A stretch of 59,137 bases of DNA, taken from assembly GCF_000731095.1 (NCBI RefSeq), contig NZ_JMTZ01000016.1, forward strand, positions 1 through 59,137, read 5' to 3'. The translations under genes were made by a program, and so were the position numbers. Below, piece by piece: positions 11,478 through 16,609 of the stretch. Origin of the DNA: Lysobacter antibioticus. Its GTDB lineage: Bacteria > Pseudomonadota > Gammaproteobacteria > Xanthomonadales > Xanthomonadaceae. The notes under the pieces were generated by a model, which did no database searches, was not told the DNA's origin, and saw only the letters and a list, made by a program, of their open reading frames with translations. Numbering within the stretch: the stretch's first letter is position 1; each line of letters starts with the position of its first letter.

Positions 11478-13460
11478 ATGTCCGCTCCGTCTTCGCGTCT
11501 GCTGTCCGGTCTGGCCCTGTTGGCCTGCGCCCCGCTCGCCCATGCCGCCGAGAGCGGCGACGCGGCGCGCACCCTGGACTCGATCACCGTCGTCGCCGAA
11601 CGCGAGCCGGGCAATTTCGATCTCGATCGCGGCGAGATCGAGCTGAGCCAAGCCTCCGACCTCAGCGACCTGTTGTCGAACGAATCCGGTGTCGCCGTCG
11701 GCGGCGGCTCGCCGGTCGCGCAGAAGATCTACGTGCGCGGCTTCGAAGACACCATGCTCAACGTCACCATCGACGGCGCACAGGAGCCGGCCGAGTTGTA
11801 TCACCACCAGACCCGGGTGCAGATCGAGCCGGAGTTCATCAAGTCGATCGAACTCGATGCCGGCGCCGGTGCGGCCACCGGCGGCGCCGGCGCGCTGACC
11901 GGCGCGTTGCGCGTGCGCACCCGCGACGCCTTCGACCTGCTGCGCCCCGGCCAGGACGCCGGATTCCTGGTCAAGGCCGCGGCCGGCCTCAACGGCGGCA
12001 ACAGCTACAAGGGCGTGATGGCCGGCTACGGCCGCCTGTCCGACGGGCTCGGCGTGCTCGCCACCTACGTCTATCAGGACGGCGGCGATTACGACGACGG
12101 CCACGGCGACCGGGTCAAGCCGACCGCCTACCGGCACGAACGCGCCCAGTTCAAGCTCAGCGGCCTGTTCGATGCGCACAGCTTCGACCTGTCGGCCGAA
12201 CACCTCGACGACACCGGCACGTTTTACGAACGCCCGCACATGACCAACTTCAGCGGTCGTTTCGTCCTGTCGGATCACCAGATGCGCCGCGACACGGTGT
12301 CCTACGAGCACCGTTACGACCCCGACAGCGACGCACTGAACCTGCGCCTCAACGCCTACCGCACCCGCAGCGAATACCAGAACCGCCGCAACACCACCGG
12401 CCTGCTCTACAGCGCCGGCGAACAGACCAGCACCGGCCTGGACCTGCGCAACACCGCGCTGTGGCAGTCGTTATCGCTGACCTACGGCCTGGACTACCGC
12501 AGCGACCGCCTGCATGCGCGCCAGCAGGCCACGCCGCCGCCGTTCTGGGGCCGCACCGAACAGACCGCGCGCGTGTTCGGCGCCTACGCCCAGGGCGACT
12601 GGGACGTGTCGCCGCAATGGAAGCTCTCGGCCGGCCTGCGTTACGACGATTACCGCCACAGGGGCGTGTCCGGCGTCAGCGCCGGCGCCTCCAACGATGC
12701 AGACAAGCTCAGCCCGAACCTGTCGATCGCGTGGACGCCGATCGAACCATTGACCTTCCGCCTGGCCTATTCGGAAGCCTTCCGCGGCGTGACCATCCGC
12801 GAAGCCTTCTTCAGCGCGCTCTACACCCACCGCGGCGATCTCGAAGGCGAACGCGCCGACAACCTCGAATTCGGCGTGTCCTGGGAGCGCAACGGTTACT
12901 TCGCCCGCGCCACCGCCTTCCGCCAGAACATCGAGCACTACATCTCGGCGGTGTATTCGGGCCAGGCCGCCTGGGGCTACTGGGAGAATATCGGCGACGC
13001 CAAGGTCGAAGGCTACGAGGCCGAGATCGGCAAGCGCTGGCAGCGCATGGGCGTGAGCGTCGGCGTGTGGCAGTCGGACAACAGCTTCGAGGACCGCCCG
13101 CTCAACGATGCGGACCTCGGCCTGGGCACCAGCATCGGCCGCACCTGGACCGCGCGCTACGACTGGCAGCCCGCATCCGGACAGGCCGACTACGCGGTGC
13201 GCGCGCGCCTGGTCGAGGACGAACGCAACAGCATCGCCGCCGATGCGCCCGACAAGCCGGGCTACGCCGTGGTCGACCTGATGGCGAACTGGAATCTGCT
13301 CGGCGACGATCGCCTGAAACTCGGCGCGGCGGTCAACAATCTGTTCGATCGTTTTTATTACGACCACGGCACTTACGGTTATCAGGCCGGTTCGAAAAGT
13401 TATATCGGTTTCCCGTCGCCGGGTCGCGAACTGTCGTTGTCGCTGACGTATCGATTCTGA
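11478..13460 (+). CDS. TonB-dependent outer-membrane receptor, probably for an iron compound
   Basis: A 660-aa protein with a signal peptide (residues 1-23, ending A-H-A), a TonB box-like L-D-S-I-T-V-V-A, a plug domain (about 40-160 with the V-R-G-F motif), and a 22-strand type barrel ending in S-L-T-Y-R-F, with the terminal Phe required for outer-membrane assembly. It takes up a substrate across the outer membrane using TonB energy. The Fur-like site upstream suggests iron or a siderophore; the substrate is not identifiable. The ATG at 11478 has a GAAGGAA ribosome-binding site; the open frame extends 10 codons upstream without one. No siderophore synthesis genes are nearby. The final 8 bp of the coding frame (ATCGATTC) recur 17 bp on, past the stop. 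Confidence 0.9.
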   Translation: MSAPSSRLLSGLALLACAPLAHAAESGDAARTLDSITVVAEREPGNFDLDRGEIELSQASDLSDLLSNESGVAVGGGSPVAQKIYVRGFEDTMLNVTIDGAQEPAELYHHQTRVQIEPEFIKSIELDAGAGAATGGAGALTGALRVRTRDAFDLLRPGQDAGFLVKAAAGLNGGNSYKGVMAGYGRLSDGLGVLATYVYQDGGDYDDGHGDRVKPTAYRHERAQFKLSGLFDAHSFDLSAEHLDDTGTFYERPHMTNFSGRFVLSDHQMRRDTVSYEHRYDPDSDALNLRLNAYRTRSEYQNRRNTTGLLYSAGEQTSTGLDLRNTALWQSLSLTYGLDYRSDRLHARQQATPPPFWGRTEQTARVFGAYAQGDWDVSPQWKLSAGLRYDDYRHRGVSGVSAGASNDADKLSPNLSIAWTPIEPLTFRLAYSEAFRGVTIREAFFSALYTHRGDLEGERADNLEFGVSWERNGYFARATAFRQNIEHYISAVYSGQAAWGYWENIGDAKVEGYEAEIGKRWQRMGVSVGVWQSDNSFEDRPLNDADLGLGTSIGRTWTARYDWQPASGQADYAVRARLVEDERNSIAADAPDKPGYAVVDLMANWNLLGDDRLKLGAAVNNLFDRFYYDHGTYGYQAGSKSYIGFPSPGRELSLSLTYRF

Positions 13461-13595
13461 AGATGCATCGATTCCGAGGCGGCGCGCTGCATACACATCG
13501 GTGATTAATAGCGCAGATAGCGACGACGCCCGGCGTCGCCCGCGAAACGCAGGCCTGGCCTACGTTAAGCATGTTCAGTAAACTTTCTGTCGCGC

Positions 13596-13634
13596 AAATA
13601 AAAAGCCCCGCAGGCAGGGGGGGCCGGCGGGGCT
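13596..13634 (-). terminator. Intrinsic terminator after the sRNA/polA unit
   Basis: Arms AGCCCCGC (13634-13627 on the minus strand) and GCGGGGCT (13611-13604) form an 8-bp GC stem, followed by TTTTTATTT. This is the clearest classical terminator in the window apart from the edge one, and serves transcripts read from polA towards lower coordinates. Confidence 0.8.
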
Positions 13635-13722
13635 GGTGGAGCGTGACCTGGGGAGGGGTCGTTCGCTCCGGGGGATCACTCCAGGGGAGGGAGAGATCAG
13701 CGACAGACGTTGCATCTGTCGC
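13597..13722 (-). ncRNA. Candidate sRNA with C-rich loops downstream of polA (sX13-like)
   Basis: On the minus strand, a CATATAGG -10-like element (13732-13725) is followed by a perfect 8-bp hairpin (GCGACAGA 13722-13715, TCTGTCGC 13707-13700). Next comes a stretch with unpaired C-rich runs (CTCCCTCCCC, ATCCCCC, GACCCCTCCCC), and then an intrinsic terminator at 13634-13596. The length would be about 120-126 nt. In Xanthomonas the sRNA sX13 is about 115 nt, has C-rich loops and, as I recall, also lies next to polA; Spot 42 in E. coli and ErsA in Pseudomonas also lie next to polA. C-rich loops would pair with G-rich ribosome-binding sites. Homology is inferred from position and architecture only. 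Confidence 0.65.
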
Positions 13723-13837
13723 GACCTATATGACCATCCCGCACATGGATAGTTCGTGAAGATGGGAGTTAATAAATTGTTGGATTCAGGACTGATTCAT
13801 TAAACCAATTCCAGCAAAATCAATGGTTTCCGCATAA

Positions 13838-16609
13838 TCAATGCGCTTCGTCCCAATTAATTCCGACCCCGCTGTCGACGACCAACGGCACCCTCAGGCT
13901 GGCCGCCCCCGCCATCCGGCGTGAAGCCTCGCCGACCAGGGTGTCGACGAAATCGGCTTCGACCTCGAATACCAGTTCGTCGTGCACCTGCAGGATCATC
14001 TTCGCGCGGGAGGCATGCGACGCCAACCAGGCGTCGATGTCGATCATCGCTCGCTTGATGATGTCGGCCGCGGTGCCCTGCATCGGCGCATTGATCGCCG
14101 CGCGTTCGGCGCCCGCGCGCAAGCCCTGGTTGGTGGCCTTGATGTTCTCCAGATACAGGCGCCGGCCGAACACCGTCTCGACGTAGCCGCGATCGCGCGC
14201 ATCCTGGCGGGTGCGCTCCATGAAGTCGCGCACGCCGGGATAGCGGCTGAAATACAGGGCGATGTAATCCTGCGCTTCGCCGCGGCCGATGCCGAGCTGG
14301 CGCGCCAGACCGAACGCGCTCATGCCGTACATCAGGCCGAAGTTGATCGCCTTGGCGGCGCGGCGTTCGTTGCCGCTGACCTCGTCGAGCGATTTCTTGC
14401 CGAACACTTCGGCCGCGGTCGCGCGGTGCACGTCGGCGCCGGACTCGAACGCGCGCACCAGGCCGACGTCCTCGGACAGGTGCGCCATGATGCGCAGCTC
14501 GATCTGCGAATAGTCGCAGGCGACCAGGCGCCGGCCTTCGGGCGCGACGAAGGCGCGGCGGATGCGGCGGCCGTCGTCGGTGCGGATCGGGATGTTCTGC
14601 AGGTTCGGGTCGCTCGACGCCAGGCGCCCGGTCGCGGCGCCGGCCTGGTGATAGCTGGTGTGCACGCGCCCGGTGTCCGGGTTGACCATCTCCGACAGCT
14701 TGTCGGTGTAGGTGCTGCGCAGTTTCGCCAGGCCGCGGTATTCGAGGATCACCCGCGGCAGCTCGTGCTGGTCGGCGATCGCTTCGAGCGCCTCTTCGTT
14801 CGTGCTCGGCTGCCCGGTCGGCGTCTTCACCAGCACCGGCAGCTTCAACTCGTCGAACAACAAGGCCTGCAACTGCTTCGGCGAATCCAGGTTGAAGGTG
14901 CGCCCGGCCAGCTCGGTGGCCTTGATCTGCGCGTCGAGCATGCGCTTGCCGAGGTCCTGCGATTGCCGGCGCAGCTCGTCGCCGTCGATCATCACGCCGT
15001 TGGCCTCGATGCGTTCGAGCACCGGCACCAGCGGCATTTCGATTTCGCGGTAGACGCGTTCGAGCCCCGGTTCGGCGGCGAGGCGCGCGCCGAGCACGCG
15101 GTGCAGACGCAGGGTCACGTCGGCGTCCTCGGCGGCATAGCGGGTGGCGTCGTCGATGGCGACCTGCGAGAACGCGATCGCCTTGGCGCCCTTGCCGGCG
15201 ACGTCGGCATATTTGATGGTGTCGTAGCCGAGGTAACGCTTGGCCAGCGAATCCATGTCGTGGCGGCTGGCGGTGGCGTTGTAGACGAAGCTCTCGAGCA
15301 TGGTGTCGTCGGCATAGCCGAGCAAGTCGATGCCGTGCCGGCGCAGGATGTGCAGGTCGTACTTGCCGTGCTGGCCGAGCTTGCGCCGCGCCGGATCGGT
15401 CAGCGCAGGCCGCAGCGCGTCGAGCACCGCGGCGCGGTCGAGCTGGGCCGGCGCGCCCGGGTAGTCGTGGCCGAGCGGGATGTAGACCGCGCGGCCGGTC
15501 TCGGTGGCGAAGCTCAGGCCGACCAGGTTGGCGCGCATCGGGTCGAGCGAATCGGTCTCGCTGTCGAAGGCGAACTCGTCGGCCGACTGCAGCGCCGCGA
15601 TCAGCGCGTCGAGCTGCGCTTGGGTGGTCACCGCCTCGTACTCGCCCTTGGCCGACAGGGCCGCATCCGGATTCTCAGCGCTCGCCGAGGCGCGCGCGTG
15701 GCCCGCCGCGGTCGCGCGCAAGCCGGCGCGGTCGGCGGCGAGTTCGTTGGCGGCCGCATTGGCGCCGCCTTCGAGCTCGCGCAGCGCCTGCTTGAAGCCG
15801 TAACGCGCATACAAGGTGCGCAGCGCCTCGGCATCGCGCTCGCGCAGGGCCAACTGCTCGGGGCTGCGGTCGAGTGCGACGTCGGTCTTGATCGTGGTCA
15901 GCTGGCGGTTGAGCGGCAGACGGCCGAGCGCGGCGCGCAGGTTGTCGCCGATCTTGCCCTTGATATCGCCGGCGTGGGCGATGACGTTTTCCAGGGTGCC
16001 GTACTCGCCGAGCCACTTTGCCGCGGTCTTGGGCCCGCATTTGTCGACGCCGGGGACGTTGTCGACGCTGTCGCCCATCAGCGAGAGCAGGTCGATGATC
16101 TGGTTGGGCTGCACGCCGAACTTGGCGAACACCGCCTCGTCCGAATCCATGCGGCTGCCGCTCATGGTGTTGACCAGGGCCACGCCCGGGCGCACCAGTT
16201 GGGCGAAGTCCTTGTCGCCGGTCGAGATGGTCACGTCGATGCCTGCGTTCGCGGCCTGCAGCGCCAGCGTGCCGATCACGTCGTCGGCCTCGACCCCGTC
16301 GACGCGCAGGATCGGCAGGCCCAGCGCTTCGACGATCGCGCACATCGGCAGCACCTGAGCGCGCAGGTCGTCCGGCATCGGCGGGCGGTTGGCCTTGTAC
16401 TGCGGGTCGAGGTCGTCGCGGAAAGTCTTACCCGGCGCGTCGACGACGAAGGCCACGTAGTCGGGCCGTTCGTTCAAGGTCGAGCGCAGCATGTTGACCA
16501 CGCCGAACAATGCGCCGGTGGGTTCGCCGGCGTCGTTGCTCAGCGGCGGCAGCGCATGGAAGGCGCGGTAGAGGTAGCTGGAACCATCGATCAGGACGAG
16601 TCTTTTCAT
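13838..16609 (-). CDS. polA: DNA polymerase I
   Basis: A 923-aa protein with all three domains: the 5'-3' exonuclease (residues 1-290, starting M-K-R-L-V-L-I-D-G-S-S-Y-L-Y-R-A-F), the 3'-5' exonuclease (about 325-515, F-D-S-E-T-D-S-L), and the family A polymerase (about 520-923, with D-Y-S-Q-I-E-L-R as motif A and V-H-D-E-L-V-F as motif C). It fills gaps in repair and replaces RNA primers. The start at 16609 fits the family; upstream in-frame codons are not conserved. A TAGAAT hexamer 7 bases upstream suggests a leaderless transcript. The sRNA candidate and terminator follow it. Confidence 0.97.
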   Translation of the reverse strand: MKRLVLIDGSSYLYRAFHALPPLSNDAGEPTGALFGVVNMLRSTLNERPDYVAFVVDAPGKTFRDDLDPQYKANRPPMPDDLRAQVLPMCAIVEALGLPILRVDGVEADDVIGTLALQAANAGIDVTISTGDKDFAQLVRPGVALVNTMSGSRMDSDEAVFAKFGVQPNQIIDLLSLMGDSVDNVPGVDKCGPKTAAKWLGEYGTLENVIAHAGDIKGKIGDNLRAALGRLPLNRQLTTIKTDVALDRSPEQLALRERDAEALRTLYARYGFKQALRELEGGANAAANELAADRAGLRATAAGHARASASAENPDAALSAKGEYEAVTTQAQLDALIAALQSADEFAFDSETDSLDPMRANLVGLSFATETGRAVYIPLGHDYPGAPAQLDRAAVLDALRPALTDPARRKLGQHGKYDLHILRRHGIDLLGYADDTMLESFVYNATASRHDMDSLAKRYLGYDTIKYADVAGKGAKAIAFSQVAIDDATRYAAEDADVTLRLHRVLGARLAAEPGLERVYREIEMPLVPVLERIEANGVMIDGDELRRQSQDLGKRMLDAQIKATELAGRTFNLDSPKQLQALLFDELKLPVLVKTPTGQPSTNEEALEAIADQHELPRVILEYRGLAKLRSTYTDKLSEMVNPDTGRVHTSYHQAGAATGRLASSDPNLQNIPIRTDDGRRIRRAFVAPEGRRLVACDYSQIELRIMAHLSEDVGLVRAFESGADVHRATAAEVFGKKSLDEVSGNERRAAKAINFGLMYGMSAFGLARQLGIGRGEAQDYIALYFSRYPGVRDFMERTRQDARDRGYVETVFGRRLYLENIKATNQGLRAGAERAAINAPMQGTAADIIKRAMIDIDAWLASHASRAKMILQVHDELVFEVEADFVDTLVGEASRRMAGAASLRVPLVVDSGVGINWDEAH

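Follow-up and report, generated by a model that had tools for sequence, protein, structure and literature searches.

The window, by which we mean the whole 59,137-nt stretch of Lysobacter antibioticus DNA that was analysed, carries polA on the minus strand and, directly behind it, a small RNA gene whose features are collected in Table 1. Read on the minus strand, the hairpin GCGACAGA-TGCAACG-TCTGTCGC is followed by C-rich stretches and then by the terminator CCCTGCCTGCGGGG-CTTTTT, whose T run extends to 13600. The sequence therefore agrees with the layout described in the earlier note. The -10-like element which that note had placed at the right distance is also present, as the TCATA of the region TCATATAG, six bases ahead of the hairpin.

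Table 1. Features of the polA-sX13 region of the window
Feature	Positions	Strand	Evidence or remark
polA, DNA polymerase I, 931 aa	13838..16633	-	Pfam DNA_pol_A 9.6e-155 and exonuclease domains; upstream neighbour of the sX13 RNA on the same strand, stop codon ending at 13838
-35-like GAACTA, putative sigmaE/ECF-type promoter	13750..13755	-	shuffle score
-10-like TCATA, putative	13729..13733	-	occupies the place of TCTAA/TCTGA-like elements in relatives
sX13 small RNA, predicted primary transcript of ~123 nt	13600..13722	-	model R1 and fold
Rfam RF02232 (sX13) match, model positions 1-115	13599..13711	-	63.8 bits, gathering cut-off 50
5′ stem-loop, GCAAC in the loop region	13700..13722	-	covariation of helix 1
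Stem-loop 1, C-rich loop CUCCCCU at 13689-13683	13674..13698	-	fold, Rfam alignment
Stem-loop 2, C-rich loop CCUCCCCA at 13656-13649	13638..13669	-	fold, covariation
Stem-loop 3, intrinsic terminator, loop CCCCCCU at 13622-13616	13604..13634	-	fold, terminator scan, covariation

A single hairpin of this kind is unremarkable, since the window contains 46 exact 8-bp hairpins with loop lengths of 3-10. The terminator scan of 12500-14500 returned one site versus 1.2 expected, which is chance level when taken alone. The predicted RNA (13722-13600) folded at -63.5 kcal/mol versus -35.2 ± 3.5 kcal/mol for 200 dinucleotide shuffles, none of which was as good (z -8.2; z -5.7 when the first 11 nt were removed). 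This fold, the Rfam match and the compensatory pair changes described below indicate that the feature set as a whole is not due to chance.

The covariance search with the Rfam sX13 model, proposed as a check in the earlier note, was positive and exceeded the cut-off over all 115 model positions. It was the only gathering-level Rfam match in the window, and the genome (5.5 Mb, 168 contigs) contained one RF02232 copy. With a score over the curated cut-off, a place directly behind polA and three stem-loops with 4C/5C apical loops, the sX13 likeness of this polA-adjacent RNA with C-rich loops had been named correctly. The model match identifies 13722-13600 (minus strand) as the sX13 gene of its host, a Lysobacter-like member of the Xanthomonadaceae/Lysobacteraceae. 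Because the match is full length, the RNA is of an already known kind, and the value of recognising it lies in the wider family to which it points. sX13 was reportedly mapped in a 2012 study.

The distribution of sX13 was examined with RF02232 in 60 genomes. Matches were found in 39 of them, 32 over the cut-off, covering 20/20 genomes of the genus, 15/16 other members of the family and 4/24 genomes of other families, the last four below the cut-off. The sole miss in the family was an 82% complete genome. At E ≤ 0.001 one unrelated control genome was also matched, below the cut-off. In 2013 sX13 was described as confined to the Xanthomonadaceae (PMC3771888, in the part available); with below-cut-off matches in other families, it is not. 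In 29 of the 30 sX13 loci returned by this search and by the search of the own genome, the match was preceded by polA on the same strand, at a distance of 128-361 nt. The nearest named match of the PolA end was Lysobacter niastensis (86% over 200 residues, in a collection that may omit very near records). In Xylella, sX13 is among the RNAs observed in cells (PMC12189769, excerpt). Another locus of the window's own family (G266, L177:574-950) showed two tandem sX13-like copies behind polA.

A covariance model of the RNA only, without promoter, was built from 37 sequences and termed R1. It matched the window at 13725-13600 with 119.2 bits, the window copy being among R1's own sequences. R1 matches were obtained in 129 of 250 genomes of the order and in 22 of 370 genomes of the class, 5 of those 22 coming from the order. 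Of 22 R1 matches of at least 30 bits in the class, 18 adjoin polA downstream; the class-level match L224 was discarded as false, resembling a tRNA followed by a terminator. A second model, R2, also without promoter, was built from 81 R1 hits, so that drift is possible, and matched 120 of the 370 class genomes. We examined 76 R2 hits outside the building set. None contains an exact row of the R2 alignment, one pair among them (L282, L295) is more than 90% alike, and for 48 of the 76 polA is found within 1.5 kb upstream in the same orientation. All three models, R1, R2 and the ErsA-based R3 described below, may be attracted by C-rich hairpins with T tails. At phylum level R2 matched 23 of 397 genomes, 7 of them outside the class. 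Four of these seven (L316, L317, L318 and L320) resemble ordinary terminators and were rejected as members of the family beyond the class; their fetched stretches showed no polA match, and no promoter was seen by eye. When Rfam was run on 20 wider loci, only three ErsA loci were named; on 20 other loci, 7 reached the sX13 cut-off, two of which (L053, L186) have the same RNA sequence.

Tandem arrangements were seen among the wider hits. Four and three tandem sX13-like RNAs lie behind polA in L210:552-1306 and L218:257-896, respectively, both from one genus, and these copies have promoters of their own (GGAACT/GGAACC...TCTGA- or TCTCA-like). A second, related RNA group with a 5′ stem around ATCGCC...GGCGAC and TCCCC loops was found in L175:590-1306, where three stand in tandem, and in L171, L172, L173, L187 and L188, with no polA match in the fetched stretch. 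Its hosts belong to another family of the order (f12, probably Rhodanobacteraceae).

The promoter region was then compared. In the window the element is GAACTA-N16-TCATA, a weaker form of GGAACTT-N16-TCTAA, and elements like the latter lie just 5′ of the 5′ stem in many R1 hits outside the window's family. The score of the window element was reached by 7 of 5000 shuffles at the fixed position and at 3 of 118274 window positions with spacer 16. For the comparison, a sigmaE consensus with our own weights was used, spacers other than 15 and 16 were penalised, and each locus was judged against 200 dinucleotide shuffles at p ≤ 0.05. A sigmaE-like element passed in 19/37 loci of the named set, 35/43 of the order set, 19/22 of the class set and 7/7 tested Pseudomonadaceae loci. 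Within the order set, 5 hits come from the window's family (L177 twice, L178, L183, L184), and 2 loci repeat R1 sequences (L168 = L066, L186 = L053). Among the 76 R2 hits outside the building set, 65 carry the element, with spacer 16 in 60 of the 65 and a place within -2 to 7 bases of the R2 model start in 56. At the anchored site of 60 R2 hits the core bases A, A and C were counted 57, 59 and 58 times, and the T and C of TC 52 and 53 times; these are upper values, since anchoring picks the best match. The genome itself encodes RpoE (340.1 bits versus a cut-off of 236.15), with TGAACTT upstream of rpoE. Such putative sigmaE-type promoters upstream of polA-linked RNAs far outside the family go beyond what we found in print.

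Another reading is a plain sX13 with a house-keeping promoter (-10 TATAG), no role for sigmaE in this family of bacteria, and a likeness to ErsA due to convergence of RNAs that share a locus. In favour of it, the distance of TATAG is a usable one, TGTTATAT is present in Xanthomonas, and in the window's own family the sigmaE test was passed by only 8 of 22 named loci (L031-L049, L051, L054, L056). The two named Xanthomonas loci carry GATCCA and TGTTATA, in which both GAAC and TC are absent, while GAAC and TC..A are retained in the putative window promoter; GAAC is missing from three Pseudoxanthomonas loci (L039, L041, L042), and three Stenotrophomonas loci (L044, L046, L049) have kept GAAC and lost TC. 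In Xanthomonas the RNA is described as constitutively expressed, yet more abundant at high salt and 37 °C (PMC3771888, in part). On the other hand, a sigma-70 consensus scan found no promoter pair, and the rare window element stands at the place that GGAACTT-N16-TCTAA takes in relatives. The block ATCTTCACGAACTATCCATG (window 13763-13744, minus strand), which surrounds the -35 element and is kept whole across the window's family (40 sequences), is longer than a -35 element and is perhaps the site of a second regulator; its conservation exceeds the needs of sigmaE and counts against the sigmaE reading. From these sequence comparisons we predict sigmaE control for the window copy, with about equal chances of being right or wrong.

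The other part of this alternative, convergence, concerns ErsA (Pseudomon-1, RF01719) of Pseudomonas, which lies in the polA-engB intergenic region (PMC8575079, partial text), as the window RNA lies behind polA. No RF01719 match over the cut-off was found in the window. We fetched 14 Pseudomonadaceae polA loci. R1 matched 7 of them at the expected place (17-21 bits) and R2 matched 9 (E 9e-5 to 0.03); three R2-matched loci were scanned with Rfam, and all were named Pseudomon-1/ErsA (124-134 bits). The seven tested loci have a GAACTT/GAACCT-N16/17-TC..A promoter, of which the window element would be a weaker form, and ErsA shares with the window RNA the predicted 5′ stem-loop and a C-rich terminator loop. 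It differs in its U-rich middle domain and its Hfq role (PMC8575079, partial text) and in reaching only modest model scores. ErsA is described as strictly sigma22-dependent and raised by temperature and envelope stress (passages of PMC7565897 and PMC8575079).

For the reverse comparison, the model R3 was built from the nine R2-matched Pseudomonadaceae loci, with a structure that leaves out the 5′ stem. With E up to 3, R3 gave 57 hits in the 76 class loci; 53 of these coincided in place with the R2 hit, as did 29 of the 32 with E ≤ 0.05. In 45 control loci, most of them polA loci that R2 does not match at E ≤ 0.05, R3 gave nothing up to E 3. The coincidence in 53 loci together with the silence in the controls argues against convergence, although the 76 loci had been chosen by R2 and part of the agreement may therefore reflect generic C-rich terminators. 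Nor did R3 match the window, L070, L074 or L109 at E values up to 3, as convergence would suggest, and ErsA and the window RNA are thus linked only via R1/R2 and intermediates. The parallel to ErsA drawn in the earlier note accordingly extends beyond position, to a similar putative promoter and modest E-values in both directions through intermediates, and stops short of a direct match of R3 to the window. ErsA probably belongs to the same polA-linked sRNA family as sX13, and reaching it with R1/R2, if only at modest E-values, goes beyond what we found in print.

Taken as a whole, we consider the reading with a house-keeping promoter and convergence rather unlikely. The evidence slightly favours one ancient, Gammaproteobacteria-wide family comprising sX13, ErsA and many RNAs without an Rfam name, driven by sigmaE and placed behind polA, with a stem-loop at +1 followed by hairpins with anti-Shine-Dalgarno-like C-rich loops. 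In the Xanthomonas line the promoter would have decayed and the stress RNA become constitutive, with the window's genus intermediate. A literature search for a polA-downstream small RNA and a sigma factor yielded the sX13 paper alone (PMC3771888), and titles and abstract starts gave nothing further pertinent. None of the papers searched combines sX13 with ErsA or sX13 with RpoE, and excerpts of PMC5559785 added nothing here.

Compensatory changes in the stems of relatives, which the earlier note had suggested looking for, were found: 27 of the 34 pairs of the whole structure showed double changes in 37 sequences. The structure used in R1, including the 5′ hairpin, was assigned by hand; RNAalifold, run on the MAFFT alignment, did not recover this hairpin. 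In the 37 sequences 88.4% of cells were paired, versus 46.5-47.0% after sliding by one column. For helix 1, double changes were seen in 7/9 pairs with 82.7% of cells pairing, and in 81 sequences fitted to the model in 9/9 pairs with 88.3%. None of 500 shuffles, which ignore relatedness, reached any of five covariation measures in either set. The arms of the 5′ hairpin change from GCGACAGAT-GCAAC-GTCTGTCGC to GGATGC-ACGCAACG-GCATCC in Rhodanobacter-like genomes, covarying around a constant middle. This compensatory conservation goes beyond what we found in print.

The Rfam sX13 model begins inside the loop of this stem-loop, and Xanthomonas sX13 is described as a 115-nt RNA that is unstructured at the 5′ end and does not require its first 14 nt (PMC3771888, in part). 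The comparative data instead predict that the RNA forms a 5′ stem-loop and, compared with Xanthomonas sX13, starts about 11 nt earlier, 11 nt ahead of the first base of the Rfam model. This leaves three explanations: a difference in Xanthomonas, cleavage of the RNA within the loop, or a mapped end other than the start. It could also be argued that the inverted repeat works in the DNA, as an operator at the start site, with the RNA starting inside the repeat as in Rfam; the first Rfam position and the published 115-nt length (PMC3771888, in part) do fall inside it, and arms lying over +1 would suit a repressor site. We regard this as improbable, because the arms change together while the middle GCAA is kept in 37/37 sequences (alignment A1), where an operator would keep its arms, and because the -10 element lies mostly just 5′ of the stem in the order, class and Pseudomonas hits. 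In L203:2222-2249, the Rfam Pseudomon-1/ErsA model starts ~27 nt past the R1 match start and omits the 5′ stem-loop. The comparison suggests that the Rfam models of sX13 and ErsA both start too far downstream. Finally, the chance-level terminator scan would suit a mere polA 3′ end with its terminator and no independent RNA, but this is next to impossible given the Rfam match, the covariation, the conserved promoter, and the copies that stand in tandem or away from polA and have their own promoters.

Other polA-linked or C-rich RNAs were compared as well. The resemblance to Spot 42 noted earlier stands for the position behind polA and does not extend to sequence models: Rfam found Spot 42 in 12 of 13 enterobacterial polA loci, and R2 matched none of these 13 loci at E ≤ 0.05. 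Spot 42 (RF00021) gave no gathering-level match in the window and was absent from the E ≤ 5 matches of 13500-13850. It also differs in being Hfq-dependent and concerned with carbon metabolism (PMC3771888, excerpts). The alphaproteobacterial alpha-r7 is similar by description only, with its place at polA and three C-rich stem-loops (PMC3771888, excerpts). alpha-r14, which has C-rich loops, reached 19.5 bits on the window RNA, far under its model's cut-off of 58.8. Xanthomonas sX13 shares the same full-length model, the polA place and the three hairpins with C-rich loops (PMC3771888, excerpts).

The C-rich motifs point to how the RNA may act. CCTCC or CTCCC was present in 60/60 class RNAs counted and CTCCCT in 52, although the model itself favours such loops. 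In Xanthomonas, sX13 represses G-rich targets without Hfq, and both its C-rich loops and the G-rich target motifs are needed (PMC3771888, in part). These motifs and that reporter work make masking of G-rich translation-initiation regions likely. The strong ribosome-binding sites pointed out in the earlier note exist, with GTGGAGG before cydA (6657) and GAAGGAG before the porin gene (56490), but neither gene was retained as a target. In a hand-picked set of 15 starts, their loop duplex energies were no more favourable than those of mononucleotide-shuffled leaders (p 0.60 for the porin and 0.94 for cydA). The hfq gene of the own genome (L227) begins ATGTCTAAGGGG, with GGGG some nine bases past its start, which matches what is reported for Xanthomonas. 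The same codons occur in E. coli hfq; the GGGG may thus reflect codon conservation only and was not counted as target evidence.

The whole is, in our judgement, quite probably best explained by a trans-acting sX13 representing one branch of a gammaproteobacterial family that is linked to polA and had sigmaE as its ancestral driver. Transcription of the RNA would begin near 13722, driven by a separate promoter behind polA, and, judging from the sequence, would end at the RNA's own terminator. It is predicted, from computed folding with covariation, to form the 5′ stem-loop and three hairpins with C-rich loops. By analogy with Xanthomonas sX13, the loops would act in trans, base-pairing with G-rich segments at translation starts or close to them, and would repress translation. 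Its promoter would be a derived form of the sigmaE-type promoter that is textbook in relatives across Gammaproteobacteria, which would place the RNA as one branch within an ancient, polA-linked family of envelope-stress sRNAs. The comparison names a shared regulator, sigmaE, that is testable, and may tie together two separately studied virulence-related sRNAs. Many genomes could then be annotated with a candidate envelope-stress sRNA.
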